Positions 21 to 61,712 of a DNA stretch of 64,000 nt are shown here, piece by piece. Every line of letters begins with the position of its first letter. Within the stretch, counting starts at the first letter, position 1. The notes below the pieces were generated by a model, which saw only the letters and a program-made list of their open reading frames with translations, was not told the DNA's origin and searched no databases. The stretch is from Bryoerythrophyllum caledonicum (taxonomy: Eukaryota; Streptophyta; Bryopsida; Pottiales; Pottiaceae), in assembly GCA_963971425.1 (NCBI GenBank), contig OZ020516.1, forward strand, positions 13,628,593 to 13,692,592, in the 5' to 3' direction. The translations under genes and the position numbers were made by a program.

Positions 21-836
21 CAAAAACTAACCACCTCCTACAATAAATCGAGATGTTTTATCTTAATGAATGCCGGCACCTTCAACAACAATCCACAAGA
101 AAATACGGTTCACCCTTGGCTACTTCCATGTTCATGTGAGACTCAAAGTTGTCATTGTAATGCCAGGCTCAAACCGGACATACTTTGTGTCAGAGGTTTG
201 CCATATAATGATCCACCACCCGATCACATTAACCAAAACTACACCATTCAATTCATTGAACTCACATATCGCAACGATAGATTTTCCTCGGAAACAATCC
301 AAAACAAAATAGATAAATACCAACCCCTCATAGAAGACATCATAGCCCTTGAATGGAATGTGGATCCCCTAATAGTAATCACATCTGGCGCTCGTGCCAC
401 CACGTTTATTCCATCTATGAAAACTCTTGAAGAAACCTTCAAAATACCCATCAAAACAATTAAAACCACCTTTAAAAACATCAATACCATCGCTATTCAA
501 TATGCCATGTCCATTTTACTACATAAGCGCAAAATTGAAAACAACCAACCTCTCCCGAACACACACGACCCTCCATAGAACTACTCTCACACACCTTCAA
601 ACATCTCTCTCTCTTCTCTGAACAACTCTTTCAACTGCCGGTAGGTTACTTATGCGTTCTTGCTACTTGTTACTTATGTGTTCTTGCTACTGGTTACATA
701 GTGTCTACCCTCGAGAGGGGGAAGTAGTTCCATACCACTAGTTCCTTGTCCAGTGGGCATGGTCTTTGTGGTGGAACGAACAGACACTTTATTCATGCCG
801 GCTCCTTCGGAGACCGGCGTTTTTCTTCTTCTTCTT
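21..836 (+). mobile_element. 5'-truncated copy of the Dualen-like LINE, with 10-bp TSD
   Basis: This is a complete short insertion. The 10-mer TGATTTTTGG occurs at 11-20 and again at 837-846, directly outside the element, as expected for a target-site duplication. The body matches the 3' end of the full-length element at about 34,695-35,503: the C-terminal restriction-like endonuclease frame, the 3'UTR, the hairpin at 796-819 and a (TTC)n tail. The 3'UTR here contains a duplicated segment around 645-690 that is not in the full-length copy. Truncation at the 5' end is typical of target-primed reverse transcription. The element identity rests on direct comparison within the window. Confidence 0.93.
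66..578 (+). pseudogene. C-terminal restriction-like endonuclease remnant of the LINE polyprotein
   Basis: The 170 codons are open and closely match residues about 2918-3087 of the polyprotein frame at 25,991-35,254. The catalytic pattern is intact: RLKPDIL, then FIELTYRND with the acidic residue, then KIDKY. The remainder of the polyprotein was lost by 5' truncation, so the fragment has no promoter and is not expected to be a functional gene, although this domain itself has not decayed. The ATG at 66 is an internal methionine of the parent protein, not a native start. Confidence 0.9.
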
Positions 837-2205: not shown

Positions 2206-2219
2206 AATTTAACCATGTA

Positions 2220-2359
2220 AGAAGAAGAAGAAGAACTCCGGTCACTTAAGAGTGAATAAAGTGTCTATTCATTCCACCACTAAACCAATGTCCACCAGAC
2301 ATAGATTTAGTAGTATGGAACTACTCCCCCGCTCGAGGAGAGACACTATGTAACCAAAG
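2220..2359 (-). mobile_element. 140-bp LINE 3'-end insertion with 14-bp TSD
   Basis: AATTTAACCATGTA occurs at 2206-2219 and 2360-2373, bracketing exactly a minus-strand copy of the LINE 3'UTR. The (GAA)n at 2220 is the reverse complement of the (TTC)n tail, followed by the 3' hairpin at 2242-2255 and the block CCTCGAG...ACATAG. It is about 10-20% diverged from the other tails and its hairpin has a different sequence but still pairs. It therefore belongs to a related subfamily. It contains no coding sequence. Confidence 0.93.
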
Positions 2360-21160: not shown

Positions 21161-22026
21161 AAACCCAAACCCTAAAAATCAAACCCATGGAGTTCGCGTG
21201 ACGCGTCATGGGATGTGCGCGCGTACACCCCCACAAGTTGGTGTTCCTCCTTCCATTCGATAACTTCCTGTCGCGTGCAACCTCTTAACGACAGTCAGGG
21301 AGCTTCGTAAGTGGCCATTAAAATCTGCACTTCAAGTTTGAGTTAGAGGCATAAAAATTAAGTTTTATGAGGCAAGGCAGCCCNNNNNNNNNNNNNNNNN
21401 NNNNNNNNNNNNNNNNNNNNNNNNNNNNNNNNNNNNNNNNNNNNNNNNNNNNNNNNNNNNNNNNNNNNNNNNNNNNNNNNNNNNNNNNNNNNNNNNNNNN
21501 NNNNNNNNNNNNNNNNNNNNNNNNNNNNNNNNNNNNNNNNNNNNNNNNNNNNNNNNNNNNNNNNNNNNNNNNNNNNNNNNNNNCTCCATTATCACGAGGT
21601 GTTCAAGAGTGGAATGTCGAAGTTTCAGTATATTAAAGTTGGTTGTTATTTTAAATGAAAAAAAATGATATCTTAATGTAGACCTCTGATGAATTATAGT
21701 TAAATATAGTGCTGGATAGTGGTGTAGAAATAAAAACTTAGTAGTAGAGGGTTTGGTAACTTTAACACGTCATCACAAAGCACGAAGCGTAAGAAATGTT
21801 GCGAGGATCTAACAAGGATCTGCTGCAAGAAATTACGTCATGTTCTTGGATTAATCCCAGGCAGCTAATTGATTTTAGGATTCAATTGAATATGCCGATC
21901 AAGCAAGTGAGGAATTAGGCAATTACGCAACTTAGACCTTATTACATGATTTTTTGACATAGCTGCCCAATCTTCCACTGCATACTCAATCAAACTCACA
22001 ATCTAATTGTGAGCTTGTTTTGTTAT
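21161..22026. other. Intergenic, interrupted by an assembly gap
   Basis: No gene recognised on either side of the N run. Confidence 0.4.
21384..21583. other. Assembly gap of 200 Ns
   Basis: The round length of 200 suggests a placeholder rather than a measured gap. Linkage and distance across it are therefore uncertain. Confidence 0.99.
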
Positions 22027-24969: not shown

Positions 24970-24972
24970 TTA

Positions 24973-25439
24973 CCCTCAAACGAGAGTCGGGAACCGTATA
25001 TACAGGCACGTATTTTACTTTGTAAAACACAAAAAAATGTATTAAAGTTTAGCAAGCACCTCACACCTTTGGATTGAAGATTCTTCAACTCACAACCTTC
25101 ATTTGGAGGTCATTTCAATTAATCTCAACCTTACCATCTTCAAATACGACATTGTACATTTAGAATATTGTTCCCCCCCTGTGGCACCTTCTAATGTTTA
25201 AGGGTTAACCCTAAAACGTTAGAACAAGCCCTTGGTGACCACAATATTCTACATGTATAATAGTGTATTTGAATATGGTAAGGTTGAGATTAATTGAAAT
25301 AACCTCCAAATGAAAGATGTGAGTTGAAGAATCTCCAATCCAAAGGTGTAAGGTGCTTGCTAAACTTTAATACATTTTTTGGTATTTTACAGAGTAAAAT
25401 ACGTGGTTGTATATACAATTCCCGACTCTCGTTTGAGGG
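24973..25439. repeat. 467-bp MITE with ~200-bp inverted repeats and TTA target duplication
   Basis: The ends CCCTCAAACGAGAGTCGGGA and its inverse, at 25,420-25,439, are flanked by TTA on both sides (24,970-24,972 and 25,440-25,442). The arms pair for about 200 bp with few mismatches around a short centre containing GTGGCACCTTCTAATG. The 3-bp TTA duplication is typical of PIF/Harbinger (Tourist-like) elements. Partial relatives occur at 3,385-3,535 and 43,655-43,872. Confidence 0.9.
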
Positions 25440-25990
25440 TTAAGAAGTACAATCATCTCTCTTTATATTAGCCTTGATCGTTTTCCCTACTATATAGAGG
25501 TGCTATTATAATGGAAATAGTGGGTAATGCCTCTTACACCAAGTGTTCCTATTGTAAAGAGAAAAGACTTATCTAACATAAAGTACCTGTTATACATGTC
25601 TAGATTGTCAAGTTTTGAGGAGAGATGTCTGAGAGTAGCTGAGAGCTCCGTATTTTCTGGTTAGGTGCAACAAAGAAGTTAGTCTCTGGGAAGAGGTGTG
25701 AGTGCAACGAAGGTGGCTGGATCTGTTGCATACCCCGCTCATAGCTAAGATCAGAGGCAATAGTGGGCTTTGAGAGTGGCGTTGTGTTGGGCAGGGGTAG
25801 TAAAGGTCAGATCTAACCCTGGCATTCGAAATTTGAGCGATCTGAAGGTAGATTGGAGTGAGGGATGACCTGAAAGCACTGGGACCCTGTGTTGGCACTC
25901 GATCTAACTTCTTAGAACTCAAACACGATATACAGGTGTAGATCTAACTTGTGTTGGTTGTGACGCCCTAAGCCCACTTAGACTTCTTGA

Positions 25991-27418
25991 TTGTTGCCCC
26001 GACCCAGAAACCACCACACATACGATCTGAAGTCCACACACAGATTCGGGATAGTAGCGGCTCACACTGAAGGAGCCAACCAGCAGCGAGAACGAGATCT
26101 CAAGTCCACACAAGTGCAAGAGAGTGCAACCAAGTTACAGAACAGACGAGAGGAAACCGACGATCAAGGAAGTTCACATGACCTGAAGTGCATCCAAGTT
26201 CTGCAGCAAACATCAGCCACAAAGAAGCACACCAACAGCACGAAACCAAGCAGACAGCACTCCATCCCTGGAGTGCCCAGGTTCGATCTGACCTTACTTC
26301 ATTTCAATTTATTTTTTGTTTGTTTATTAGTGTTTGATTTGTTTGCACATTACAGTATACGAGTGATACAAAGAGATCTACAGAGCACTCACACACTAGT
26401 AGCTACCTCCGACATCTTACATATCACCACACTCACATACACTAGATGTAGATCACCACAAGCTCACTGTAACAACACGCACATAAAGCTCCACACTAGA
26501 TCTCTGATAGAAAACCCTATTAAGCTCGTATGTGTAGATCGCACGCGGAAGCGCTGGAAATTTTTCCCAGATCTAGATCTACCTGCACATCAGCAACAAA
26601 GACACACAACATCAACACTGAAGAAAACGACACGTCGACAGCAGTGCACAAGAACACGACGCAACGGCCAACAAATCCGTAACTCTATCCACATCACAAC
26701 AAGACCTCACAGCAAGATCGCAACATACAATAACACCTCAACAGGGAGCAACCTACAGCAACTTCACACCAAGATTCGATCAAACGTAACGGAGGACCAA
26801 GATCCAGCCCGCGGCAACATAACAGGGAGCACACTCTACCCCTCCTCTCACAGTTCTTCCCCTTCTTGCATTCCTCACTCACCGCTCTCACCTTGCTTAA
26901 ACCCTCCACCTCTCCTCCATGTTCCCTCCTTCATTCTCACCACAGATTCCAAGCTCCCCCACCCAAGCCCCCGGCGCATTACTACAGACAGTCACCTGAA
27001 TCGAATCCAAAGACCACGACCCAACCCTCCACAAACCCTCGCACTCACACAACTTCTCCCTGCGAACCTCTCCCTGCAAACCTCTCCCCATAGCGACCCC
27101 TGGAACTCCCCTTGCGACCTACAAAACCTTGGTAGCGACCTTGTGAATCTTCATAGCGACCCCTGGAAATCCCCCTGCGACCTATCAATTGGTAGCAACA
27201 ACCCCTGGAAATCCCCCTGCGACCTACCAATTGGTAATAGCGACCTCCCTAATCCCCCCTGCGACCTACCTAATTCCCCTAGCGACCTACCTAATTCCCC
27301 TTGCGACCTACCTAATCCCCCTTGCGACCTACCTAATCGCCCTTGCGACCTACCTAACCCCACTACCAGTACATATACTGGTACGTATTCTGGTGCGTAT
27401 TCTGGTACGTATTCTGGT
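25991..27418 (+). other. ATG-less but stop-free extension of the LINE reading frame
   Basis: For 476 codons before the first in-frame ATG (27,419) there is no stop in the polyprotein frame, although in-frame stops TGA 25,961 and TAG 25,979 lie immediately upstream. The predicted peptide is Pro/Ser/Thr/His/Arg-rich without a recognisable domain. The inverted copy is also stop-free and ATG-free over most of the matching part (40,595 down to 39,630). Either translation begins at a non-AUG codon, an upstream exon supplies the start, or this is a 5'UTR that is open for compositional reasons. Confidence 0.6.
27240..27360 (+). repeat. 21-bp minisatellite in the LINE 5' region
   Basis: About six units of GCGACCTACCTAATTCCCCT plus one base, each seven codons long (C/S-D-L-P-N-x-P). 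The same array occurs in the inverted copy at about 39,360-39,483. The repeat length is a multiple of three, so unit gain or loss keeps the frame. Confidence 0.9.
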
Positions 27419-27720
27419 ATGTATAATCATACGAATACCGATATGAATACTGATACATATATTGATACGTATATTGGAGTACATATTGGTACGTATATTG
27501 GTACGTATATTGGTACATATACTGATTCATATACTGATATGAATACTGATATGAATACCAATACAAATACTTGTACGAATACTAACACGAATACTTACAC
27601 AAATATTGATACGAATACCAAGACGAATACTTACACGAATACTCATACAAATACCAAGACGAATATTAAGGCACATACTAATACGAACATACGAATGAAT
27701 ACAAATATAAAACCAAATAC
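27364..27720 (+). repeat. 6/12-bp minisatellite encoding Thr/Asn/Tyr-rich repeats
   Basis: Units such as GTACGTATTCTG and GTACGTATATTG, later ACGAATACT-type hexamers, encode strings of GTYS, GTYI and NTNT residues. The period is a multiple of three. The inverted copy has a differently expanded version at about 39,000-39,360. The first in-frame ATG of the long frame lies inside this array. Confidence 0.85.
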
Positions 27721-30700
27721 AACTACATATACACACACAAAGACAACCACACACCATCAAAGAAACACATACATATACACACACACACACAAAGACGAAT
27801 ACATACAATCAAAAAAGCACCAAAAAAAATACCAAAGCCACATACAAAAACACAAAATTCCAAAACAAAACAATAAACCCACCTACTACAAACTACTAAT
27901 ATTAATTGGAGGGGACATAAACACAAGGCCAAACACAACCAAAAAAAAATATAAACAAACACACACACACCTATACACCATTAATAAAACAAAAACAAGT
28001 ACGCAAACAAACACATGGACACAAAAAAAATTAAAGATAAATACAATTACATTCAAAAAAAATATTGAATTTATAAACATCCACCTCTCTCCAAACAAAC
28101 AAGACCTCCATAACATAACAAAGCCCCAAAGAATTACAAAAAAAGAAAAAACATTAAAAAACAACACTAAACACACATATCACAAACTCCTACTACTTCT
28201 AGGAGGGGACATAGAAACTAACCCAGGACCCATGCCTAATATACTAAAAAGACACCCTACTTCACATAAGAAAAATGCAAAAATTTACTTCATACCTAAT
28301 ACCATAAAACTACAACCGGAATATAGACACATTGCAAAATCTTTTGCACCTTTCTTAAAAAACACACATACATTACACCACACACATAACAACACATATC
28401 CAAACATTGCCCGATACGTTCAACAAAAAAATGCGCATCCACCACCTCACATACTATATGCTCTAGTAGTCACTACCCATCCACACATAGATGAATGTAA
28501 CCATCTCTTAAACCCACAAAACCTGAACACAATTACATGGGTCAATACACTTCTACAAAACTTACTAAACTTACAAAATCCACCGGAACGACACATCTAC
28601 ACTTCACACCCGTATACAAAGTTCCTTGAAGACAACCAAAATATTATAAACCATGAGAACTCAATACATAAGGAACTATATGACTTTTTACACAGCGAAA
28701 CAATATCTCCCTCAAATGAAACAATAAAAATAAAATTCCCCTACCTACCTAACAATCTCATCAATGAATCACTAAAATGTTTGGACCCTATACCAGAATA
28801 CACCCACCCACCCCCACCACTTCCCTACATCTCTCCGCAAAACCAAAATATTATATCAAATCAAGAAAATACATACATAATCACATGGAATGCCTCCTCT
28901 CTAAACACTGCCCTTCCTAGCCTACAAACTTTGGTCACGCACACAAATACACCACCAGCCCTCATAGTTATACAAGAAACAAAATTATCTGCCACAAAAT
29001 CCACAAAATATATACAAAATATATTTCAAGACTATAAACTCATCTATAACAATATACATGCACTTACAAGATGCATTCAACAACGAAGACCATACACACC
29101 AGGCCGAGGAGGTCTCCTTACACTAATACACAAAAAATATGCCTTCCCGGGCAACATCAACAAAATCCCTACCCCAATGCACATATCACCTTACATTCAA
29201 ATAATCAAAATTACTAATCACCCTCTACAACCATGGTTAATCTTTCACATGTATATGCCATCTCATCCCGAAGACACTAGATTTATCATAGACATACAAA
29301 ACACTATTACTTCCCAAATTCATAATAACCCTAATCACACATACCTATTGTGTGGGGACTTCAACAGAGACATAGCATTAATTGGTCGCCAAAATGGAAA
29401 TCATAACACCCCCCCTCAAACCATTGATTACCAATGGCGCCGCTTCACAGAAAACTTAAACTTCGTCTACATCGATACCGATACACAATTCTCTAGACAA
29501 GGTGGCTATAATTACAGCGACTGGAGTCTAATAGATGGATTCTACATAAATACAAACAACAATACACAATACACCTCTACAACAAACAAGGATGTTATTC
29601 TCAACTCGGACCACTCACCTATACAATTACACATTCCAAATAACACATTAATTAATAGAACTCCTACAATCCTAAAAAATGATACTATACGCATACTCAA
29701 CCCCATTCCAAAAGACAATATAGAAAAATTCAACACCAAATTCTTTGAAAAAAACTCCATACAAATAGACTCCCTCATAAACACTCTCGAAAATAACAAT
29801 CAATTATCACAAATACAATGGCAAGAAGCATGCCACACCCTAGACAAACTTATCAATGCAATCTCTGACACACTAGAACAAACTTGTAAAGCCCAACCAA
29901 TACCTCAAATGACAAACAGAACTTCTCAACAAGGAGGTTACTTACCCCGTAAACTTTCTAAAACTTGGAAACAACACCTAACCACATACCATACTATACG
30001 GAAAACCATTAGAATTGTAAAAAATAACCCTCAATGGCGTAATCACCCCATATGCAACGAACTACTAACTATACAATACACCCAAATCCCTACCCCGCCA
30101 CCTTCGGACCTACCTCACGATACATGGATAAAAAATATAGCACTAATTGCAAAAAATGCCAACATACAAGCCCGCAAAATTACCTCAAAATATACCAAAG
30201 ATAACATTAAAAAAGCCATTTCAAAATATAGACAACTATACGAAATTAGCCCCAAAAAAATTAACAGGAAAGTTTTTAAAAACCTTGAATATCCACCAAT
30301 GGATTGTATCACAGACCAATACAACAATATTCTAACTAGCCCAGAAGACATTGCAAATGAAATATTCAACCAACAAACCAAAAGTAATAGACCAACAGTA
30401 CCAACATGTAATTATCAACCACAACATCCATCTGAATGTACATGTGCAGTACGCCAGTACCCATGGCACGACCTCGATGGATTTACCCTTGACAAACGAG
30501 GCGAACCAGAAATCTCACTACATAAATACTTTAATATAGCCACATATGACACATGTCTTCACAATCTTGGTAACAACAAAGCCCCAGGCCCAGACCGCAT
30601 CCCAAACTCAATACTAAAAAACATGCCCCCAAGATTCCATAAACTATTATTACTATTCTTTTCTCATTGTTACAAACAAAAACAAATACCTATGTCATGG

Positions 30701-33700
30701 AAATCAAGTACAACAATTCTACTATACAAAAAAGGCGATCCATCTATACTACCCAACCATAGGCCAATTGCACTAGCTAACACAATATACAAACTCTTCA
30801 CTAGTACACTCACCTCTATACTATCCTCATACGGTGAAAAATTCAAAATCTTACATGATAGTCAAGAAGGATTTAGAGCAGAAAGAAGTACCGCTAGACA
30901 AATACAAACTATAATAGCCGCACTAGAAGACGCAAGATTTACAAACCAAGATATATACATACTATACGTCGACTTCAAAAACGCCTTTGGCTCAATGGAC
31001 CATGCCCGACTATTAGCAATAATGATGGACCTTGGTTACCCAAAAGATGCAACTACACTTATTGGTAACATCTATTCTCAATCATCTACTTGTTATACTG
31101 GTGAACATTTTGGGAAAACAAAACCTATACCCATTCAAAGAGGAACTATACAAGGGGATACCCTTAGCCCATACCTATTCATTATATTCTTAGAACCACT
31201 ACTCAGATGGCTAGAACGAGGCAACAATGGATACACTTTTGGCACATCACAAGTCACAATAAATTCTGCCGCATACGCAGATGACCTCGCCGCCATAACT
31301 AACAAAATCAAATCTATCCAAATACAACTCAACAAAATTGATAGATATTGTAAATGGACCGGAATGGACGTAGGTGTCCCAAAATGTGCCGCTACCGGAT
31401 GCCCAAACAAATCCAAAATAAACCCTACCACTTTTAAAGCCCTTATGCAAGCTTCCAGCATCAATTACCGCAATCAACCAATCCCCATATTACACCAAAA
31501 TGAACCATACATATACTTAGGTACAAATCTTGTTCCATCACTAAAATGGAAAATCCAAATCCACACCACAACGACGAAACTCATCAAACAATGCAATGAA
31601 CTAACAACATGCCCGGCCACCATGAAACAAAAAATAAAAATGATTGATACCGTACTACGTCCAGGTGTGGCATACAGTTTCTACGGTGTACCATACTCTA
31701 TGCCTGCTATCAAAAAACTTGATAAAAAAATAATAGCCATACAAAAAACCATATGTGGACTACCAAAATGCATGTCAAATGCAATAACCCAACTCCCGCA
31801 TAACCTATTCGGGCTTGAAGCTTTCTCCCTCAAAAACGCATACCTCCGTTGTATAGGTGAACAACTACAAAATGCCTTAAATGATAAAGGTAGACTTGGA
31901 AAAATATATAATGGACTAACTCATTATGTCCTTGCCCAATACGGTGGCGCAGAAAACATACCTAGAATTAAAACAAGTGACTGCATAAGATCACCGATAA
32001 CACGAACATTCTTCTTATTAAAACATATAGCTAAAGCCCACCTTAAAAGTACGCTCCCAAACTTCCTCATTAATCCTACAACACTAGAAATACTATGGCG
32101 CCAAGAAACACTAAATCATAACACACTCAATGCCCAACTCTCCCAAAAGCTTCTACAAAAACTCATCTCAAAAAATATTTTTGAACTAAACCAAATTACT
32201 ATACCAAACGGCACACACATCATGAACAATGAGGATTTCAAAACCTACCACTTCACCCCATCCAAACTAATAAAAAGTGCCCTAAATGTTGCTAAACAAC
32301 TATTTTGCCACCCAACATGCCCCACTACATGTCATACTCCTTGCAACATACACCCATACTCTCATATACTTAAAGATCCATTCACCACCCTCAACAATAA
32401 CATCATCCCAAGAAATATTCCCACACCAACCAACCCCCCTAACCCTCCACATACATACCACCCCCGCCCCCCAACATACATCCCCAAAAACCCTACCACA
32501 TATCCCATTAATAATATCATAAACCATAAACATATCCAACACACAGACACAAATAACATAAAAAATACATACACAAAATATTTATGTCAATGGCAACACA
32601 ATGATAACACATACAATAAATGGCTTCCCCAAAGAGACCTATTTCCACGACATGACACCAACACCTCCACACATAACACAGAAAAATTAAAACAATACTA
32701 CCAAAAAATTCAAAACAAAACATACTCGGATATCATCCTAGCACACCACCCCCAAGAACAATTCTCAGACTCAAGATCCGTAACACCACCCATAATTATC
32801 CCTCTCTTAAACATCCACACAACAGAATGCAACCCCGAAAATGATATCCTTACATCCTCAAACACAATCCAAATAAATAACAATCAAGCACATCTATACG
32901 AAGAAAATGGCCGACATTTACATACCATCCCCATTACTAGACTCCAATGGCTATGGAATCAATACAATATAAATTTACAAACTCCTACAAACATCGAACC
33001 AACGACCCAATCCTTTGAAACCGAAATAATCTGGCTATACCAAAGGTATAAATACCGAATACCAAAAACTGACCCCCTAAAAAATGCACAATACACAATA
33101 CCCACTCCCATCTTAGACTCATTAATCACATCCTTTAACATCGAACAAGCATACTTTTCTTCCCCGGTCACATGTTCTACCAAACTAAAAAAATTCTACT
33201 CATCTTATGAAAGGGATAAAATATTCGGATCCCTAGGAAAGGCCTTTGACTATAAATGGATTGGTAAAGGTATAGCTCACCCCCACAACGAGAAAGATAT
33301 GGAACAAGCAATACATTGGGCTCGACTTGCCGCCAAACACGATCCAAATAACACAAATACGATCATCATCACACCGAACAACAATTGGTACCAAAACAAT
33401 AACCAACATTTAAATCCATTTTTAGATTCCCATATCATTGCAGTATTTGAGGCAGACACAATACCATACGAAGAACCTACTATCCCACCCGAACTAAAAA
33501 AACCCCGAATCGAGCCATCAACATTACAAATACTATGCGTCCATCATCAAAATCAAACCCTAGGTTCCCTAGAACAACTTGCTGAACTTACCACCATAAC
33601 AAACAATTTAAACATACACCGAATATACACAAAATTGGCCCCACCAACACCCATACAAACCCCAGTAAACAAAAGTAAAAACTGGTCCAAACTAAACTAT

Positions 33701-35254
33701 GTCAACAACACATTAAACTACTCCGTCACACCTCCCCCTCTCCCTGACTACCCAACTCATACTACACCAAAATTTAACCCCGCACACAGTTACTACACTG
33801 ACGGCTCCTTTAAACCACCAGAACAAATTAGCCCGGGTTCTTGGCGCAGAGAAAAAGCTGGCTATGGCATATTTAATTCTATCAAAGAAATTAAACTAGC
33901 CAAAAGACTCCATGGCCTACAAAACGTCCTCAGAGCAGAACTCATGGCCATTCACAAAACACTACAAATCATCACAACAAAATACAAAAATGAACCTGCA
34001 CATATATTCACCGATTGTATAAATGTACTCTACCTACTAAACACTCAAATAACACACCCTACCCTTCACAATAGCCACCCCGACCAAACCATATTATCAT
34101 CAATGGTCCAAATGTTACAAAACCGTACACAAATCACAACTCTTCACAAAGTGAAAGCCCATGCCAACATTGACGGCAACGAACAAGCAGACAAACTTGC
34201 AAAAGAAGGCCGAGAAAAAACACACAAAAATGCCAAAGATCCACACGAACATGCCCATGCCACCCCATACTACTTTCAAAAAGAAGATTGGCCTTCCAAA
34301 GAAGATACCCCCGACAAAGGCCCAATTAGATTTTTGGGCAAATATCTCAAAAAACAAGACCTCTACAACAACCTTGACACAATCTCAGAAAATATTCCTT
34401 ACATAGAAAAATGGACTAATAATAACGACATAGACAATGAACTCTCTACAAACTTTTGGAAAAACCCCATCATCTCAGACTCACAAATAACATGCCTCAT
34501 CAAATTCCGTACTGGTCAATATATGGGAAACGCTCGCAAACAACTCTTCTTTGGAATAGAAAGGTTCCCATCCATAACATGCCCCATATGCCCCTCAACG
34601 GACCCCGACACATGGCTTCATGTTCTACTCAAATGCCAAAACCACCACATACACTCTCTAATTGTTAAAAGGCATAATAAAGCGGTAGGGGAAGTCCGGA
34701 AATTAATCACCTCCTACAATAAAGCGAGATGTTTTATACTAATGAACGCCGGCACTTTTAATAACAATCCACAAGAAAATACAGTCCCCCCTTGGCTACT
34801 CCCATGCTCATGTGTGATCCAAAGATGTCATTGCAACGCTAGGCTCAAACCGGACATCCTATGTGTTAGAGGTTTAGCATACAATGATCCGCCACCCGAC
34901 CACATTAATCAAGACTACACCATTCAATTCATTGAATTCACATATTGCAACGATAGATTTTCTCCGGAAACAATCCAAAACAAAATAGACAAATATCAAC
35001 CCCTCATTGACGACATCATTGCCTTTGGATGGAAGGTAGACCCCCTTATTGTTATCACATCTGGCGCTCGTGCCACCACCTTTATCCCATCTATGAAAAC
35101 TCTAGAAGATACCTTCAAAATACCCATTGAAACAATCAAAACCACCTTTAAAAAAATTAACACCATCGCTATTCAATATGCCATGTCCATTTTGCTACAT
35201 AAACGTAAAATTGAAAACAACCAAGCCCTCCCCGATACTCAAGATCCCCCTTAA
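27419..35254 (+). CDS. LINE polyprotein: 2A - APE endonuclease - RT - RNase H - CCHC/RLE
   Basis: The frame has 2,611 codons from the first ATG, with 476 more open codons upstream. Residue numbers count from 25,991. 2A-like core at 738-747, then Met748. APE endonuclease about 960-1210: TWNASSL, IQETKL, CGDFN (D1123, N1125), SLIDGFY and SDHSP (D1207, H1208). Reverse transcriptase about 1525-1800: KAPGPDRIP, LYVDFKNAF (D1661), QRGTIQGDTLSPYL and YADD (1762-1765). RNase H about 2600-2740: D2604 (YTDGS), E2650 (RAELMAI), D2675 (FTDCIN) and D2734 (NEQADKLA), all four acids present. The zinc motif is C2864, C2867, H2877 and C2882, then RHN 2894-2896. The restriction-like endonuclease has P2954-D2955, E2982 and K2998/K3001. 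All enzymatic sites look intact. It should form ribonucleoprotein with its own RNA and insert by target-primed reverse transcription. Which endonuclease nicks the target is unknown. Confidence 0.93.
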   Translation: MYNHTNTDMNTDTYIDTYIGVHIGTYIGTYIGTYTDSYTDMNTDMNTNTNTCTNTNTNTYTNIDTNTKTNTYTNTHTNTKTNIKAHTNTNIRMNTNIKPNTTTYTHTKTTTHHQRNTYIYTHTHKDEYIQSKKHQKKYQSHIQKHKIPKQNNKPTYYKLLILIGGDINTRPNTTKKKYKQTHTHLYTINKTKTSTQTNTWTQKKLKINTITFKKNIEFINIHLSPNKQDLHNITKPQRITKKEKTLKNNTKHTYHKLLLLLGGDIETNPGPMPNILKRHPTSHKKNAKIYFIPNTIKLQPEYRHIAKSFAPFLKNTHTLHHTHNNTYPNIARYVQQKNAHPPPHILYALVVTTHPHIDECNHLLNPQNLNTITWVNTLLQNLLNLQNPPERHIYTSHPYTKFLEDNQNIINHENSIHKELYDFLHSETISPSNETIKIKFPYLPNNLINESLKCLDPIPEYTHPPPPLPYISPQNQNIISNQENTYIITWNASSLNTALPSLQTLVTHTNTPPALIVIQETKLSATKSTKYIQNIFQDYKLIYNNIHALTRCIQQRRPYTPGRGGLLTLIHKKYAFPGNINKIPTPMHISPYIQIIKITNHPLQPWLIFHMYMPSHPEDTRFIIDIQNTITSQIHNNPNHTYLLCGDFNRDIALIGRQNGNHNTPPQTIDYQWRRFTENLNFVYIDTDTQFSRQGGYNYSDWSLIDGFYINTNNNTQYTSTTNKDVILNSDHSPIQLHIPNNTLINRTPTILKNDTIRILNPIPKDNIEKFNTKFFEKNSIQIDSLINTLENNNQLSQIQWQEACHTLDKLINAISDTLEQTCKAQPIPQMTNRTSQQGGYLPRKLSKTWKQHLTTYHTIRKTIRIVKNNPQWRNHPICNELLTIQYTQIPTPPPSDLPHDTWIKNIALIAKNANIQARKITSKYTKDNIKKAISKYRQLYEISPKKINRKVFKNLEYPPMDCITDQYNNILTSPEDIANEIFNQQTKSNRPTVPTCNYQPQHPSECTCAVRQYPWHDLDGFTLDKRGEPEISLHKYFNIATYDTCLHNLGNNKAPGPDRIPNSILKNMPPRFHKLLLLFFSHCYKQKQIPMSWKSSTTILLYKKGDPSILPNHRPIALANTIYKLFTSTLTSILSSYGEKFKILHDSQEGFRAERSTARQIQTIIAALEDARFTNQDIYILYVDFKNAFGSMDHARLLAIMMDLGYPKDATTLIGNIYSQSSTCYTGEHFGKTKPIPIQRGTIQGDTLSPYLFIIFLEPLLRWLERGNNGYTFGTSQVTINSAAYADDLAAITNKIKSIQIQLNKIDRYCKWTGMDVGVPKCAATGCPNKSKINPTTFKALMQASSINYRNQPIPILHQNEPYIYLGTNLVPSLKWKIQIHTTTTKLIKQCNELTTCPATMKQKIKMIDTVLRPGVAYSFYGVPYSMPAIKKLDKKIIAIQKTICGLPKCMSNAITQLPHNLFGLEAFSLKNAYLRCIGEQLQNALNDKGRLGKIYNGLTHYVLAQYGGAENIPRIKTSDCIRSPITRTFFLLKHIAKAHLKSTLPNFLINPTTLEILWRQETLNHNTLNAQLSQKLLQKLISKNIFELNQITIPNGTHIMNNEDFKTYHFTPSKLIKSALNVAKQLFCHPTCPTTCHTPCNIHPYSHILKDPFTTLNNNIIPRNIPTPTNPPNPPHTYHPRPPTYIPKNPTTYPINNIINHKHIQHTDTNNIKNTYTKYLCQWQHNDNTYNKWLPQRDLFPRHDTNTSTHNTEKLKQYYQKIQNKTYSDIILAHHPQEQFSDSRSVTPPIIIPLLNIHTTECNPENDILTSSNTIQINNNQAHLYEENGRHLHTIPITRLQWLWNQYNINLQTPTNIEPTTQSFETEIIWLYQRYKYRIPKTDPLKNAQYTIPTPILDSLITSFNIEQAYFSSPVTCSTKLKKFYSSYERDKIFGSLGKAFDYKWIGKGIAHPHNEKDMEQAIHWARLAAKHDPNNTNTIIITPNNNWYQNNNQHLNPFLDSHIIAVFEADTIPYEEPTIPPELKKPRIEPSTLQILCVHHQNQTLGSLEQLAELTTITNNLNIHRIYTKLAPPTPIQTPVNKSKNWSKLNYVNNTLNYSVTPPPLPDYPTHTTPKFNPAHSYYTDGSFKPPEQISPGSWRREKAGYGIFNSIKEIKLAKRLHGLQNVLRAELMAIHKTLQIITTKYKNEPAHIFTDCINVLYLLNTQITHPTLHNSHPDQTILSSMVQMLQNRTQITTLHKVKAHANIDGNEQADKLAKEGREKTHKNAKDPHEHAHATPYYFQKEDWPSKEDTPDKGPIRFLGKYLKKQDLYNNLDTISENIPYIEKWTNNNDIDNELSTNFWKNPIISDSQITCLIKFRTGQYMGNARKQLFFGIERFPSITCPICPSTDPDTWLHVLLKCQNHHIHSLIVKRHNKAVGEVRKLITSYNKARCFILMNAGTFNNNPQENTVPPWLLPCSCVIQRCHCNARLKPDILCVRGLAYNDPPPDHINQDYTIQFIEFTYCNDRFSPETIQNKIDKYQPLIDDIIAFGWKVDPLIVITSGARATTFIPSMKTLEDTFKIPIETIKTTFKKINTIAIQYAMSILLHKRKIENNQALPDTQDPP
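27872..27940 (+). other. Degenerate upstream sister of the 2A motif (GDINTRPNT)
   Basis: YYKLLILIGGDINTRPNT is plainly a duplicate of YHKLLLLLGGDIETNPGP, which lies about 100 codons later. Both are a hydrophobic Leu run followed by GGDI. The core here lacks the E and the terminal NPGP that ribosome skipping needs (D-x-E-x-N-P-G-P). The inverted copy has the same variant near 38,667-38,690, so it is an old state of the family rather than a fresh mutation. Confidence 0.75.
28187..28231 (+). other. 2A-like ribosome-skipping motif, GDIETNPGP
   Basis: The codons GGA-GGG-GAC-ATA-GAA-ACT-AAC-CCA-GGA-CCC encode GGDIETNPGP, preceded by LLLLL. This is a perfect D(V/I)ExNPGP consensus. In the family mechanism the ribosome fails to link Gly to the last Pro, so one mRNA yields two proteins. 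The break would separate the low-complexity N-terminal part from the APE-RT-RNaseH-RLE enzyme (2,340 residues counted from the next Met). The next codon is ATG (28,232), so independent initiation there is also possible. 2A motifs are known in trypanosome and sea-urchin non-LTR elements. Confidence 0.88.
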
Positions 35255-35467
35255 ATGCTTCTCCGCCGAGACTTATCTTGACTGGTTGGTTTTGTGGTTT
35301 TGGCGACTTGCTTTGTTAGTTGTTACATTGGTTGTTTGTGTGCTTGGTTGGTATCAGGTCACCTGTTACATAGTGTCTACCCTCGAGAGGGGGAAGTAGT
35401 TCCAGTTTACTAATTCCTTGTCCGGTGGGCATGGTCTTAGTAGTGGAACGAACAGACACTTTATTCA

Positions 35468-35503
35468 CGCCGGCTCCTTCGGAGACCGACGTTCTTCTTC
35501 TTC
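35468..35503 (+). promoter_or_regulatory. LINE 3' hairpin and (TTC)4 tail
   Basis: Positions 35,468-35,491 fold into a stem of about ten pairs with one bulged A and a TTC loop (CTCC-TTC-GGAG at the tip), followed directly by TTCTTCTTCTTC. The same structure lies at 796-819 and 38,896-38,919, and a sequence-different but paired version at 2,242-2,255. Short insertions always keep it, so it is the likely recognition site for the element's reverse transcriptase. That role is an inference by analogy with other stringent LINEs. Confidence 0.75.
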
Positions 35504-38500
35504 TAGATGATTGAGAATAGATGTTACCAATAAGTGTAGTTGCATCTTTTGGGTAACCAAGGTCCATCATTATTGCTAGTAGTTGGGCATGGTCCATTGA
35601 GCCAAAGGCGTTTTTGAAGTCGACGTATAGTATGTATATATCTTGGTTTGTAAATCTTGCGTCTTCTAGTGCAGCTATTATAGTTTGTATTTGTCTAGCG
35701 GTACTTCTTTCTGCTCTAAATCCTTCTTGACTATCATGTAAGATTTTGAATTTTTCACCGTATGAGGATAGTATAGAGGTGAGTGTACTAGTGAAGAGTT
35801 TGTATATTGTGTTAGCTAGTGCAATTGGCCTATGGTTGGGTAGTATAGATGGATCGCCTTTTTTGTATAGTAGAATTGTTGTACTTGATTTCCATGACGT
35901 AGGTATTTGTTTTTGTTTGTAACAGTGAGAAAAGAATAGTAATAATAGTTTATGGAATCTTGGGGGCATGTTTTTTAGTATTGAGTTTGGGATGCGGTCT
36001 GGGCCTGGGGCTTTGTTGTTACCAAGATTGTGAAGACATGTGTCATATGTGGCTATATTAAAGTATTTATGTAGTGAGATTTCTGGTTCGCCTCGTTTGT
36101 CAAGGGTAAATCCATCGAGGTCGTGCCATGGGTACTGGCGTACTGCACATGTACATTCAGATGGATGTTGTGGTTGATAATTACATGTTGGTACTGTTGG
36201 TCTATTACTTTTGGTTTGTTGGTTGAATATTTCATTTGCAATGTCTTCTGGGCTAGTTAGAATATTGTTGTATTGGTCTGTGATACAATCCATTGGTGGG
36301 GATTCAAGGTTTTTAAAAACTTTCCTGTTAATTTTTTTGGGGCTAATTTCCTATAGTTGTCTATATTTTGAAATGGCTTTTTTTATGTTATCTTTGGTAT
36401 ATTTTGAGGTAATTTTGCGGGCTTGTATGTTGGCATTTTTTGCAATTAGTGCTATATTTTTTATCCATGTATCGTGAGGTAGGTCCGAAGGTGGCGGGGT
36501 AGGGATTTGGGTGTGTTGTATAGTTAGTAGTTCGTTGCATATGGGGTGATTACGCCATTGAGGGTTATTTTTTACAATTCTAATGGTTTTCCGTATAGTA
36601 TGGTATGTGGTTAGGTGTTGTTTCCAAGTTTTAGAAAGTTTACGGGGTAAGTAACCTCCTTGTTGAGAAGTTCTGTTTGTCATTTGAGGTATTGGTTGGG
36701 CTTTACAAGTTTGTTCTAGTGTGTCAGAGATTGCATTGATAAGTTTGTCTAGGGTGTGGCATGCTTCTTGCCATTGTATTTGTGATAATTGATTGTTATT
36801 TTCGAGAGTGTTTATGAGGGAGTCTATTTGTATGGAGTTTTTTTCAAAGAATTTGGTGTTGAATTTTTCTATATTGTCTTTTGGGATGGGGTTGAGTATG
36901 CGTATAGTATCATTTTTTAGGATTGTAGGAGTTCTATTAATTAATGTGTTATTTGGAATGTGTAATTGTATAGGTGAGTGGTCCGAGTTGAGAATAACAT
37001 CCTTGTTTGTCGTAGAGGTGTATTGTGTATTGTTGTTTGTATTTATGTAGAATCCATCTATTAGACTCCAGTCGCTGTAATTATAGCCACCTTGTCTAGA
37101 GAATTGTGTATCGGTATTGATGTAGACGAAGTTTAAGTTTTCTGTGAAGCGGCGCCATTGGTAATCAATGGTTTGAGGGGGGGTGTTATGATTTCCATTT
37201 TGGCGACCAATTAATGCTATGTCTCTGTTGAAGTCCCCACACAATAGGTATGTGTGATTAGGGTTATTATGAATTTGAGAAGTAATAGTGTTTTGTATGT
37301 CTATGATAAATCTAGTGTCTTCGGGATGAGATGGCATATACATGTGAAAGATTAACCATGGTTGTAGAGGGTGATTAGTAATTTTGATTATTTGAATGTA
37401 AGGTGATATGTGCATTGGGGTAGGGATTTTGTTGATGTTGCCCGGGAAGGCATATTTTTTGTGTATTAGTGTAAGGAGACCTCCTCGGCCTCGTGTGTAT
37501 GGTCTTCGTTGTTGAATGCATCTTGTAAGTGCATGTGTATTGTTATAGATGAGTTTATAGTCTTGAAATATATTTTGTATATATTTTGTGGATTTTGTGG
37601 CGGATAATTTTGTTTCTTGTATAACTATGAGGGCTGGTGGTGTATTTGTGTGCGTGACCAAAGTTTGTAGGCTAGGAAGGGCAGTGTTTAGAGAGGAGGC
37701 ATTCCATGTGATTATGTATGTATTTTCTTGATTTGATATAATATTTTGGTTTTGCGGAGAGATGTAGGGAAGTGGTGGGGGTGGGTGGGTGTATTCTGGT
37801 ATAGGGTCCAAACATTTTAGTGATTCATTGATGAGATTGTTAGGTAGGTAGGGGAAATTTATTTTTATTGTTTCATTTGAGGGAGGTATTGTTTCGCTGT
37901 GTAAAAAGTCATATAGTTCCTTATGTATTGAGTTCTCATGGTTTATAATATTTTGGTTGTCTTCAAGGAACTTTGTATACGGGTGTAAAGTGTAGATGTG
38001 TCGTTCCGGTGGATTTTGTAAGCTTAGTAAGTTTTGTAGAAGTGTATTGACCCATGTAATTGTGTTCAGGTTTTGTGGGTTTAAGAGATGGTTACATTCA
38101 TCTATGTGTGGATGGGTAGTGACTACTAGAGCATATAGTATGTGAGGTGGTGGATGCGCATTTTTTTGTTGAACGTGTCGGGCAATGTTTGGATATGTGT
38201 TGTTATGTGTGTGGTGTAATGTATGCGTGTTTTTTAAGAAAGGTGCAAAGGATTTTGCAATGTGTCTATATTCCGGTTGTAGTTTTATGGTATTAGGTAT
38301 GAAGTAAATTTTTGCATTTTTCTTATGTGAAGTAGGGTGTCTTTTTAGTATATTAGGCATGGGTCCTCGGTTAGTTTCTATGTCCCCTCCTAGAAGTAGT
38401 AGGAGTTTGTGATATGTGTGTTTAGTGTTGTTTTTTAATGTTTTTTCTTTTTTTGTAATTCTTTGGGGCTTTGTTATGTTATGGAGGTCTTGTTTGTTTG

Positions 38501-39580
38501 GGGAGAGGTGGATGTTTATAAATTCAATATTTTTTTTGAATGTAATTGTATTTATCTTTAATTTTTTTTGTGTCCATGTGTTTGTTTGCGTACTTGTTTT
38601 TGTTTTATTAATGGTGTATAGGTGTGTGTGTGTTTGTTTATATTTTTTTTTGGTTGTGTTTGGCCTTGTGTTTATGTCCCCTCCAATTAATATTAGTAGT
38701 TTGTAGTAGGTGGGTTTATTGTTTTGTTTTGGAATTTTTTTGTTTTTGTATGTGGCTTTGGTATTTTTTTGGGTGCTTTTTTGATTGTATGTATTCGCCT
38801 TTGTGTGTGTGTGTGTATATGTATGTGTTTCAGTTTACTAATTCCTTGTCCGGTGGGCATGGTCTTAGTAGTGGAACGAACAGACACTTTATTCACGCCG
38901 GCTCCTTCGGAGACCGACGTTCTTCTTCTTCTGTATGTGTTTCTTTGATGGTGTGTGGTTGTCTTTGTGTGTGTATATGTAGTTGTATTTGGTTTTATAT
39001 TTGTATTCATTCGTATGTTCGTATTAGTATGTGCCTCAATATTCATCTTGGTATTTGTATGAGTATTCGTGTAAGTATTCGTCTTGGTATTCGTATCAGT
39101 ATTCGTGTAAGTATTCGTGTTAGTATTCGTACAAGTATTTGTATTGGTATTCATATCAGTATTCATATCAGTATATGAATCAGTATATGTACCAATATAC
39201 GTACCAATATGTACTTCAGTATACGTATCAGTATACATATCAGTATATGTATCAATATATATATCAGTATATGTATCAGTATATGTATTCGTATCGGTAT
39301 TCGTATTAATATACGTACCAGAATATGTACCAGAATACGTACAAGTATATGTACTGGTAGTGGGGTTAGGTAGGTCGCAAGGGGGATTAGGTAGGTCGCA
39401 AGGGGGATTTGGTAGGTCGCAAGGGGAATTAGGTAGGTCGCTAGGGGAATTAGGTAGGTCGCAGGGGGGATTAGGGAGGTCGCTACTACCAATTGGTAGG
39501 TCGCAGGGGGATTTCCAGGGGTTGTTGCTACCAATTGATAGGTCGCAGGGGGATTTCCAGGGGTCGCTATGAAGATTCAC
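35504..39580 (-). pseudogene. Broken LINE polyprotein of the inverted copy
   Basis: Open pieces: 38,693-39,580 (low-complexity repeats, interrupted by the nested insertion), 36,351-38,360 (from the Met after the 2A site through the APE endonuclease, with GDFN, SDHSP and other catalytic motifs intact) and 35,504-36,293 (RT up to VDFKNAF and the NIYSQSS segment). The 36,351 TAG replaces a Tyr codon (TAC). The 2A proline codon CCA has become CGA at 38,367-38,369, giving GDIETNRGP, which should abolish skipping. The RT lacks YADD. Confidence 0.9.
38831..38932 (+). mobile_element. 102-bp nested LINE 3'-end insertion with ~10-bp TSD
   Basis: GTATGTGTTT at 38,821-38,830 is repeated at 38,933-38,942. 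Between them lies a 5'-truncated LINE 3' end starting CAGTTTACTAATTCC, with the hairpin at 38,896-38,919 and a TTC tail. Its sequence equals the 3'UTR of the full-length copy at 35,402-35,503 almost base for base, so it is a recent insertion by a close relative. It lies within the low-complexity coding part of the inverted copy. Confidence 0.94.
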
Positions 39581-41160
39581 AAGGTCGCTACCAAGGTTTT
39601 GTAGGTCGCAAGGGGAGTTCCAGGGGTCGCTATGGGGAGAGGTTCGCAGGGAGAAGTTGTGTGAGTGTGAGGGTTTGAGGAGGGTTGGGTCGGGGTCTTT
39701 GGGTTCGATTCAGGTGACTGTCTGTAGTAATGCGCCGGGGGCTTGGGTGGGGGAGCTTGGAATCTGTGGTGAGAATGAGGGAGGGGACATGGAGGAGAGG
39801 TGGAGGGTTTAAGCAAGGTGAGAGCGGTGAGTGAGGAATGCAAGAAGGGGAAGAACTGTGAGAGGAGGGATAGAGTGTGCTCCCTGTTATGTTGCCGCGG
39901 GCTGGATCTTGGTCCTCCGTTACGTTTGATCGAATCTTGGTGTGAAGTTGCTGTAGGTTGCTCCCTGTTGAGGTGTTGCTGTATGTTGCGATCTTGCTGT
40001 GAGGTCTTGTTGTGATGTGGATAGAGTTACGGATTTGTTGGCCGTTGCGTCGCGTTCTTGTGCACTCTTGTCGAGGTGTCGTTTTCTTCAGTGTTGATGT
40101 TGTGTGTCTTTGTTGCTGATGTGCAGGTAGATCTAGATCTGGGAAAACTTTCCAGCGCTTCCGCGTGCGATCTACACACACGAGATTAATAGGGTTTTCT
40201 ATCAGAGATCTAGTGTGGAGCTTTATGTGCGTGTTGTTACAGTGAGCTTGTGGTGATCTACATCTAGTGTATGTGAGTGTGGTGATATGTAAGATGTCGG
40301 AGGTAGCTACTAGTGTGTGAGTGCTGTGTAGATCTCTTTGTATCACTGGTATACTATAATGTGCAAACAAATCAAACACTAATAAACAGACAAAAAATAA
40401 ATTGAAATGAAGTAAGGTCAGATCGAACCTGGGCACTCCAGGGATGGAATGTTGTCTGCTTGGTTTCGTGCTGTTGGTGTGCTTCTTTGTGGCTGATGTT
40501 TGCTGCAGAACTTGGATGCACTTCAGGTCATGTGAACTTCCTTGATCGTCGGTTTCCTCTCGTCTGTTCTGTAACTTGGTTGCACTCTCTTGCACTCGTG
40601 TGGACTTGAGATCTTGTTCTCGCTGCTGGTTGGCTCCTTCAGTGTGAGCCGCTGCTATCCCGAATCTGTGTGTGGACTTCAGATCGTATGTGTAATGGTT
40701 TCTGGGTCGGGCAGCAGTATAAGAAGTCTAAGTGGGCTTAGGGCGTTACAACCAACACAAGTTAGATCTACACCTGTATATCGTGTTTGAGTTCTAAGAA
40801 GTTAGATCGAGTGCCAACACAGGGTCCCAGTGCTTTCAGGTCATCCCTCACTCCAATCTACCTTCAGATCGCTCAAATTTCGAATGCCAAGGTTAGATCT
40901 GACCTTTACTACCCCTGCCCAACACAACGCCACTCTCAAAGCCCACTATTGCCTCTGATCTGAGCTATGAGCGGGGTATGCAACGGATCCAGCCACCTTC
41001 GTTGCACTCACACCTCTTCCCAGAGACTAACTTCTTTGTTGCACCTAACCAGAAAATACGGAGCTCTCAGCTACTCTCAGACATCTCTTCCCTTCGAACG
41101 CGGAGAACCAATAACTAGTTACAGATTGTCCAGAAGAAATTGGTATTTGACTTGTTGAAA

Positions 41161-43654: not shown

Positions 43655-43872
43655 AACCATATACATAGACACATATTTTACTCTCTAGAATACAAAAATG
43701 TATTCAAGTATAGCAAGACCTATACCTTTTGATTGAAGATTCTTCAACTAAGGAAGGTCTTTCATTTGGAGTTCATTTCAGTATCTAAATCTTATTGTGT
43801 TCAAATACGACACCATACATGTAAAATATCATGGCTACCAGTGGCACCTTATGATGTTTAGGGATTAACCTT
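43655..43872. repeat. Half of the 467-bp-type MITE
   Basis: Matches the left arm and centre of the element at 24,973-25,439: ACATATTTTACT, AATGTATT.AAGT.TAGCAAG, GATTGAAGATTCTTCAACT, TTCATTTGGAG and GTGGCACCTT. The second arm is missing and the termini are eroded, so it is a fragment. Confidence 0.75.
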
Positions 43873-59978: not shown

Positions 59979-61712
59979 ATGGGCAACAGTTGTGTAGGAG
60001 CGGCTGGGTACTTTCAGGGCTTCACCAGTGTGATCGCACTGGGAGGGCGTAGCTCCAGATCCCCTAGTGAGGTATCACCTACTCCATCGAAGACAGAGCA
60101 TAGAGGGGGGAGCAGGGCAGAGGCGGAGTCCCCTGAGACTCAACAGAAACCGCCACGCCCGGCTCACATCCCTGCTGTAGAACCGGCTGAAACTCAGCAA
60201 TTCAAAGAAGTGATCGAAGCCATGAAGAAAGGGAGAGAGATGAAGCCCGTCCCTGGCCAGAGTCTAACTCACTCTGTGTTGCAGCGGAAGACGGAGAACC
60301 TCAGAGACCTTTATGTTCTGGGAAAGAAGCTGGGGCAAGGTCAATTTGGCACCACCTACCTGTGCATTGAGAAGGCCACCAGCAGGGAGTATGCATGCAA
60401 GTCCATTGCCAAGAGGAAGCTTATTTCCAAGGAAGACGTGGATGATGTTCGCCGTGAACTGCAAATCATGCATCACCTTTCAGGACACCCGAACATTGTC
60501 ATGATCAAGGGGGCGTATGAAGATCCTGCTTCAGTGCATCTAGTGATGGAGCTTTGTGCAGGAGGTGAGCTTTTTGACCGCATTATTCAACGAGGACATT
60601 ACTCCGAAGCCAAAGCGGCAGTGCTCACTCGTACTATAGTGGGTGTTGTTGAGACCTGCCATTCTCTCGGCGTGATGCACAGAGATTTGAAGCCGGAGAA
60701 CTTCCTGTTTTCTAGTACAAAGGAGGATGCGGCTCTGAAAACGACTGATTTTGGGCTATCAGTCTTTTTCAAACCTGGAGAAGTTTTCAGAGATGTGGTT
60801 GGAAGCCCTTACTATGTTGCTCCTGAAGTGTTGAGGAAGAACTATGGCCCTGAAGCTGATGTTTGGAGTGCGGGTGTGATTCTTTACATCCTTCTCAGTG
60901 GAGTTCCTCCATTCTGGGCAGAGACTGAGCAAGGCATCTTTGAGCAGGTTTTGAAATCAGAGCTTGATTTTGCCTCAGATCCATGGCCTAAAATTTCTGA
61001 TAGCGCCAAGGATTTGATTCGCAAAATGCTCACCCCCCAGGCTTCGAAGAGGTTGAAAGCTCATCAAGTGTTGGCACATCCTTGGATCTGCGAGGACGGA
61101 GTAGCACCCGACAGACCTATCGATTCAGCAGTGCAATCCCGGCTCAAGCACTTCTCCGCAATGAACAAGCTGAAGAAGATTGCCATTCGGGTCATTGCGG
61201 AGTCCTTGTCAGAGGAGGAGATCGCAGGTCTAAAGGAGATGTTCAAGATGATGGACACGGACAACTCAGGATCCATCAGTTACGAAGAGCTGAAAGCGGG
61301 TCTGAAGAAAGTGGGTTCCAATCTCAAAGAGGAAGATGTGCGGCAGCTCATGGACGCTGCTGACGTCGATGGCAGTGGGGCAATCGATTATGGGGAGTTT
61401 CTGGCCGCCACTCTCCACTTGAACAAGATTGAACGCGATGAAAACATGTTCGCCGCTTTCTCATACTTGGACAAGGATAACAGTGGCTATCTGACGGTCG
61501 ATGAGCTTCAACATGCCTTGGCTGAATTCAACATGGGAGACGTATCCGTAGAAGAACTGCTCAAAGAGGTTGACCAAAACAACGATGGTCAAATCGATTA
61601 CACCGAGTTTGTTACCATGATGCGCAAGGGTAACAAGGGTGGAGCTGGTCGCTCATCGTTACGGAACAGCCAAAACCTGAGTTTAAACGACGCGTTGATG
61701 ATCGGAGGATAG
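59979..61712 (+). CDS. CPK: Calcium-dependent protein kinase (CDPK/CPK)
   Basis: A single exon of 577 residues. MGNSCVG gives N-myristoylation at Gly2 and palmitoylation at Cys5, so it is likely membrane-attached. Residues 8-110 form a variable, Ser/Pro-rich domain. The Ser/Thr kinase domain spans about 112-370, with GQGQFGTTY, Lys141, HRDLKPEN (Asp236), TTDFG (Asp257) and APE (281-283). The autoinhibitory junction follows (about 380-410: [20 protein letters not shown]). Four EF hands have intact loops at 426-437, 462-473, 498-509 and 532-543. It phosphorylates targets in response to calcium; targets cannot be inferred. The family usually has several introns in the coding region and none are needed here. 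Length is normal. The ATG is preceded by a probable 5'UTR intron, and the gene converges on FPP with about 370 bp between stop codons. Confidence 0.97.

Follow-up and report, generated by a model that had tools for sequence, protein, structure and literature searches.

R2 elements insert in 28S rDNA, are not known to carry APE or RNase H, and work with a restriction-like endonuclease (RLE) alone; L1 works with APE alone. Elements of the Dualen/RandI group, as they are presented in two accounts, carry APE and RLE together with the reverse transcriptase (RT) between them (PMC3636483, PMC4640811), and one of the two takes dual-endonuclease LINEs as evidence that APE-type LINEs arose by RLE replacement (PMC4640811). 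Dualen has been described from Chlamydomonas relatives (PMC8226300), LINE/Dualen has been reported in cryptophytes (PMC12747079), and the tails given for green-algal RandI elements are (ATT)n and (CTATTT)n (PMC3747384). The LINEs of plants have been placed in L1 and RTE, with APE and RT, often RNase H, and tails of (A)n or (GTT)n (PMC9033089). 2A (StopGo) sequences in LINEs are recorded for the trypanosome L1Tc and for sea-urchin elements (PMC4981915), and one paper on StopGo states that there is no evidence of natural use by plant viruses (PMC12846837).

Here we describe a moss element that resembles each of these systems in part. Like Dualen/RandI, it carries APE, RLE and RNase H with RT between the nucleases, and its RT falls in a clade with a Pleodorina protein. 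It differs from that group in its land-plant host, its (TTC)n tail and a predicted 2A before APE, and it lacks the OTU or Josephin domain found in P0008, P0019 and P0024. With R2 it shares the RLE fold, the CCHC and RHN motifs and PD-E-K, but its RT lies apart from R2 and its targets in the moss are dispersed and A/T-rich. An exact D(V/I)ExNPGP core, preceded by an L-rich stretch, recalls the trypanosome and sea-urchin 2A LINEs; the element described here is a dual-endonuclease LINE and its host a plant. APE and RT are common to the element and the L1 and RTE LINEs of plants, whereas its RT stands apart from the plant L1 row of our tree (P0004) and its tail is (TTC)n rather than (A)n or (GTT)n. 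To our knowledge, plant L1 and RTE LINEs have no RLE, PCIF1-like domain or 2A.

The element and its host

We analysed a stretch of 64,000 nt, referred to as the window, whose features are collected in Table 1. A preliminary description had placed an intact element at 25620..35503. The element is indeed intact; its start was set too far downstream, since the 5' end common to other copies begins at 25596. The open reading frame is uninterrupted, as claimed, with no stop in 3087 codons. The parts listed earlier (APE, RT, RNase H and RLE) are all present, and the PCIF1-like domain, the 2A and the inverted copy at 35505-41088 had been overlooked.

Table 1. Features of the dual-endonuclease element (copy 1) and of related copies in the window.
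Feature	Position	Strand	Basis or remarks
Full-length element, copy 1	25596..35504	+	9,909 bp; 5' end and 3' end common to other copies
5' leader before open frame	25596..25990	+	Other copies begin 0-54 nt upstream of 25621
Stop-free frame, 3087 codons	25991..35254	+	First in-frame ATG at 27419; another ATG right after 2A, 28232
N-terminal low-complexity part with 21-bp and 12-bp in-frame repeats	25991..28207	+	Sequence
Degenerate duplicate of 2A region (KLLILIGGDINTRP...)	27890..27943	+	Sequence; comparable degenerate stretch in L051
Predicted 2A (StopGo), YHKLLLLLGGDIETNPGP, then ATG	28178..28231	+	Motif match
APE endonuclease	28877..29623	+	Pfam PF03372 (Exo_endo_phos) 8.7e-7 on cut-out domain; profile
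Reverse transcriptase, YADD at 31274	30554..31759	+	Pfam PF00078 (RVT_1) 7e-26; RT profile
Weak chromodomain-like stretch	32513..32644	+	Pfam E 0.015, below cut-off
PCIF1/CAPAM-like methyltransferase-fold domain	32858..33613	+	NPPF position = HPHN
RNase H	33788..34213	+	Pfam PF00075 2.6e-14 on cut-out domain
CCHC knuckle, RHN, restriction-like endonuclease (PD..E..K)	34433..35215	+	Alignment, fold, selection
3' UTR	35255..35504	+	Sequence
3' terminal hairpin	35467..35492	+	26 bases ahead of (TTC)n tail
(TTC)n tail	35493..35504	+	Sequence
Copy 2, inverted, without its 3' half, dead (stop, frameshifts, insert)	35505..41088	-	Sequence comparison
5'-truncated copy inside copy 2, TSD TGTATGTGTTTC	38832..38932	+	Junction
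Copy 3, 5'-truncated, 82% over 24-832, TSD TGATTTTTGG	21..836	+	Comparison and junction
5'-truncated copy, TSD TACATGGTTAAATT	2219..2356	-	Junction

The motifs named in the preliminary description (those of APE, the YADD, four RNase H acids, CCHC-RHN and PD...E...K) were found at their expected places. In APE these are TWNASS (28883), QETKL (28973), GDFN (29354) and SDHSP (29606); in RNase H, TDGS (33797), AELMA (33935), FTDC (34007) and NEQADK (34178); and in the RLE region, CPIC (34580), KRHN (34667), KPDI (34847) and IEFT (34931). The C, C, H, C, R-H, P-D, E and K of the last region are invariant in an alignment of 11 sequences, and the fold obtained for the C-terminus is that of the R2 endonuclease, in line with its earlier reading as a PD-(D/E)XK nuclease. 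A chromodomain between RT and the PCIF1-like domain was considered and rejected, its Pfam E value of 0.015 being under the cut-off and the stretch being clearly common only to P0005.

The N-terminal part is harder to interpret. Pfam gave no match above cut-off for 25991..28207. The TTG listed as start codon is mechanical, and no in-frame ATG occurs from 25991 until 27419. Over 25991-27418 there is not a single stop, whereas each of 2000 shuffled sequences had six or more even in its best frame. Since this stretch has neither a stop nor an ATG, one has to invoke a non-AUG start, an upstream exon that escaped notice or some other device. Tandem in-frame repeats of 21 bp and 12 bp occupy 27060-27690, where copy 2 differs by indels of 18 nt and 14 nt. 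The coding strand from 28232 to 35254 is very G-poor (about 10-12%, and about 5-6% at third positions). At the other end of the element, both stem sides of the terminal hairpin are changed in the truncated copy that begins at 2219.

That the host is a land plant was confirmed from one gene, which identifies it as a moss: the CDPK encoded at 59979..61712 shares 87% identity with Physcomitrium patens CPK26 from end to end, 96% with a metagenomic protein and 76% with Sphagnum. This gene and copies 1 and 2 lie on one gap-free stretch (21584-64000), preceded by 200 Ns at 21384-21583. The 3' end of copy 1 directly adjoins an internal part of the inverted copy 2, with no duplication, as if copy 2 had lost its 3' half when copy 1 inserted. 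The two copies form an inverted array, 25596-35504 (+) and 35505-41088 (-), with 3.2-kb arms that are 99% complementary; a read-through transcript could give long dsRNA and thus small RNAs against the family. A comparison of copy 1 with copy 2 as a selection test was discarded, because copy 2 is dead and the counts are uninformative. The three 5'-truncated copies of the window have TSDs of 10, 12 and 14 bp; among 2000 random site pairs taken as a control, the longest match was 9, apart from two matches of length 25.

Position of the element among LINEs

The RT tree comprised 43 rows, P0005 being omitted because its RT piece has only 132 residues. Copy 1 and P0006 were paired at 100/100. A clade of 23 rows (99/98) held the element, P0006 and the 16 PCIF1-bearing relatives of the tree, with a protein from the volvocine alga Pleodorina starrii (P0024), which ends just past the RT, among its members; the tree contains no sequence labelled Dualen. 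Placement of the RT with L1 was rejected in an AU test against a single plant L1 row in a tree without an identified RTE row (p 0.00045); that row, P0004, is presumably a plant L1 by its domains. Grouping with the two R2 rows and P0034, which we take to be NeSL-like by its Ulp1 domain, was also rejected (p 8e-7). An L1 with a look-alike C-terminus was ruled out by the RT test together with the R2-type endonuclease fold. A position of the element as sister to all other clade members was compatible with the data (p 0.49), and its joining five volvocine-like rows, a set picked after tree inspection in which only P0024 is named, was weakly rejected (p 0.033).

APE and RLE are encoded by one element, and its RT clade lies outside L1 and R2 in a tree without labelled Dualen rows; assignment to the dual-endonuclease (Dualen/RandI) group is supported on these sequence grounds. 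The APE tree (18 rows) was weakly resolved. Its only firm join was with P0006, and 11 other members were set apart (89/92), which makes an APE swap possible. No relatives were confirmed among prokaryote genome contigs searched with the RLE or among viral contigs searched with the RT.

A predicted 2A ahead of APE

The octapeptide DIETNPGP is an exact match to the D(V/I)ExNPGP core, which is expected by chance 3e-5 times per protein. The stretch upstream is L-rich, as in one known class of 2A (PMC12846837). For conservation we used stretches from five other copies, four of which cover the site. L050 retains the core at the corresponding position, as does L051 (there as DVEINPGP), and in each of L052 and L053 it is one residue off, the latter with a stop close by. 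P0008, a second member of the group, has GIEKNPGP. If the predicted 2A functions, the polyprotein would be split in translation at this point. A canonical 2A (DIEQNPGP) also occurs near the N-terminus of P0039, a LINE protein with APE, RT and RNase H that falls outside the Dualen-like clade.

Insertion junctions and a proposed mechanism

We scanned the moss assembly (437 Mb, 894 contigs) and inspected 30 copy junctions. Twenty-two were unique insertions with a TSD of 10-13 bp (10 bp in one, 11 in four, 12 in ten and 13 in seven); the remaining eight comprised two duplicates of those 22, five junctions without a TSD of at least 9 bp and one with a gap. Copy 1 of the window has no TSD of at least 9 bp at its junction. 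The first duplicated base was T in 21 of the 22 and was followed by G in 13, and the flank is A/T-rich. Half of these insertions (11/22) carried bases between TSD and element: G in nine, GGG in one and GT in one, the single G of L037 depending on where the longest leader is set to begin. A reverse transcriptase that copies into an mRNA cap would leave such an untemplated G, as established for L1.

We propose that insertion would begin with Pol II transcription from scattered start sites, giving a capped RNA. At a nick in an A/T-rich site with T at the first duplicated position, target-primed reverse transcription would copy this RNA, with priming at its (TTC)n end, and the RT would often run into the cap, leaving the untemplated G. 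APE and RLE may divide the two cuts between them, RLE being favoured for at least the second strand and held by the RT via CCHC/RHN, as in R2. It seems rather unlikely that just one endonuclease is active, with the other retained for DNA binding. R2 with its RLE and L1 with its APE do manage with a single nuclease each, but in copy 1 neither nuclease shows damage in the active-site motifs checked, and the RLE has a dN/dS of 0.06-0.16. We know of no living test system for cooperation of APE and RLE. With many intact recent copies in a moss related to the genetic model moss, the proposed division of labour would be directly testable.

A PCIF1-like domain with a changed catalytic motif

The methyltransferase core fold of the element matches PCIF1/CAPAM over 215-228 residues; unlike in PCIF1/CAPAM, only this core is recognisable, and Pfam gives no separate WW domain. 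The catalytic NPPF of PCIF1/CAPAM reads HPHN in copy 1 and A[H/D/P]PH in all eight moss loci compared. Across 18 rows, the Asn of this motif is kept in only two (P0001 and P0022, there as NPEY), and F-x-S-P is kept in 12. The domain is present in every one of the 17 relatives that reach at least 800 aa beyond the RT, and it is probably common to the Dualen/RandI group. Its dN/dS is 0.098-0.195 in 8/8 moss loci, with an upper bootstrap bound of at most 0.332. These low values indicate that the domain is kept by selection despite the changed motif.

In METTL14, a methyltransferase fold without catalytic activity has been retained for binding RNA. By analogy, the PCIF1-like domain has most likely lost methylation and would bind the element's own RNA at its capped 5' end. 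Taken further, the dual-endonuclease LINEs may have acquired a cap methyltransferase of cellular origin, which lost its chemistry and was retained as a cap-reading module that picks the element's own complete, capped RNA and brings its 5' end to the RT; running into the cap, the RT would add the untemplated G, and many copies would be full length. We put this forward tentatively, as a possibility that may well prove wrong. It agrees with the 5' end found within 11.1 kb of 35 of 40 scored young 3' ends; on the other side, those 3' ends are the best 40 of 3,476 candidates, and the 5' search had only 105 candidates. Given that three copies of the window are 5'-truncated and that the ends used are the best-scoring ones, truncation may be frequent in the family as a whole. 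Untemplated G is also known at L1 5' ends, yet L1 is not known to have a PCIF1-like domain. If true, a cap-methyltransferase fold conserved across the group would represent a new principle of RNA recognition by a LINE.

Two other readings of the domain fare less well. An active methyltransferase that marks the element RNA (for example, with cap-adjacent m6A), raising its stability or hiding it, would suit the fold, the F-x-S-P of 12/18 rows and the purifying selection; we think it unlikely in view of the Asn retained in two of 18 rows only, as NPEY, and of the A[H/D/P]PH found throughout the moss loci. A functionless relic is very improbable: the catalytic motif is degenerate, but dN/dS is 0.10-0.20 in all eight loci and none of the 17 relatives extending at least 800 aa past the RT is without the domain.

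Copies, age and selection

A genome search with the PCIF1 family (PF12237) scored the best 150 of 2,614 candidates, all above cut-off. Forty-two tie on one score, and among these at least 33 loci have a frame of exactly 3087 codons. The same search found no match in 14 named control genomes. A search with the RLE protein scored the best 141 of 8,980 first-look candidates; all have at least 93% identity, 138 are stop-free, and 33 again lie in 3087-codon frames. In both searches only the best-ranking candidates were scored, and numbers of first-look candidates should not be read as numbers of copies. The genome-wide count called for in the preliminary description is thus represented by these 33 places with 3087-codon frames, some of which look duplicated, and not by a complete total.

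Twenty whole copies were taken from the 42. Nineteen align over at least 9,882 bp at 99.98-100%, and the twentieth has a 200-N gap. The best 40 of 105 candidate 5' ends are 99-100% identical, and the best 40 of 3,476 candidate 3' ends match 100% over 148-150 bases, with two more partial rows at 89-90%; 35 of these 40 have a 5' end 9.9-11.1 kb away. The near-identity of intact copies and ends argues that the family moved very recently. The RLE search also revealed a second expanding subfamily: at least 14 copies have frames of exactly 2809 codons, with further frames of 3118-3757 codons, and several lineages of this LINE seem to be expanding side by side in the moss genome.

Older copies were compared through eight other loci of the same genome, the best-scoring ones of the PF12237 search rather than a random set, from which 0-6 stops were dropped. 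Their amino-acid identity to copy 1 is 56-91% (56-60% for L001, L004 and L005; 83-91% for others). Between copies 1 and 3, the RLE gave a dS of 0.68 and a dN/dS of 0.086 (bootstrap 0.046-0.147) over 190 codons; two further codons of the 192 were stops, at the end of the frame and at the alignment edge, and were left out. Against the moss loci, dN/dS was 0.057-0.158 for the RLE over about 150 codons (6/6 loci with enough codons) and 0.068-0.256 for RNase H (7/7); several synonymous distances to the eight loci exceed 1.5 and are rough only. The RLE, RNase H and the PCIF1-like domain are under purifying selection.

Because copies at 56-60% and at 83-91% amino-acid identity occur in one genome, the lineage has probably been diversifying in the moss for a long time. 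The alternatives offered previously were an ancient survivor and a horizontal acquisition; the eight loci fit the former better, with vertical descent as no more than a possible reading of them. That the element was recently acquired from a green alga by horizontal transfer and then multiplied in a burst seems quite improbable to us. The description of Dualen from Chlamydomonas relatives (PMC8226300), the near-identity of the youngest copies and a 2022 review section that names L1 and RTE only as plant LINEs (PMC9033089) would all agree with it; against it stand the diverged copies in the same genome, the weak rejection of the volvocine-like grouping and the compatibility of a position sister to all other members. 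Contamination or assembly duplication is scarcely credible, despite the 200-N gap and inverted copy pair in the window and the common flanks of a few copies (at least four of 33 places look duplicated, 29 of the 33 having been examined: L039 and L041 of L026, L033 of L031, and L022 of L023 in the 5' flank), since the moss CDPK shares its gap-free stretch with copies 1 and 2, and copies with different flanks and perfect TSDs occur on many contigs of 23-65 Mb.

The element is very probably a non-LTR retrotransposon of the Dualen/RandI group that has moved recently, is probably still mobile and has long been present in the moss; its mechanism is partly inferred. Its mobility is indicated at the sequence level by many near-identical intact copies, TSDs, 5'-truncated copies with the same tail, the hairpin and (TTC)n end, and selection.

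Relation to described elements

The preliminary description knew of no intact member in land plants, and we found none either among the matches listed in the open-access literature searched. The same search gave no PCIF1 in LINEs, and no PCIF1-like domain or 2A in the Dualen group, among the matches listed. We judge the combination of two nucleases, a PCIF1-like domain and a predicted 2A in land plants to be without a known report in that literature. Such an element would add a third LINE type to the L1 and RTE described for plants (PMC9033089).

Other features of the window

The truncated copy at 2219-2356 is separated by about 120 bp from a tRNA-Ala(TGC) gene at 2478-2550 (-). A 469-bp foldback at 24972-25440 (arms of 200 nt, 91%) adjoins copy 1, has related half copies at 43655-43870 and is MITE-like. 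An uninterrupted 452-aa ORF at 10832-12190 (-) matches DDE_Tnp_4 (PF13359, 4.6e-32) and is presumably a PIF/Harbinger-like transposase. The ORF at 16491-17603 (-) contains DUF7869 (PF25273, 2.2e-48) and is accompanied by ORFs on the same strand at 15583-16494 and 17787-18398. Finally, a broken Copia-like element extends over several ORFs at 45391-48784 (+), with RVT_2 at 47987-48784.
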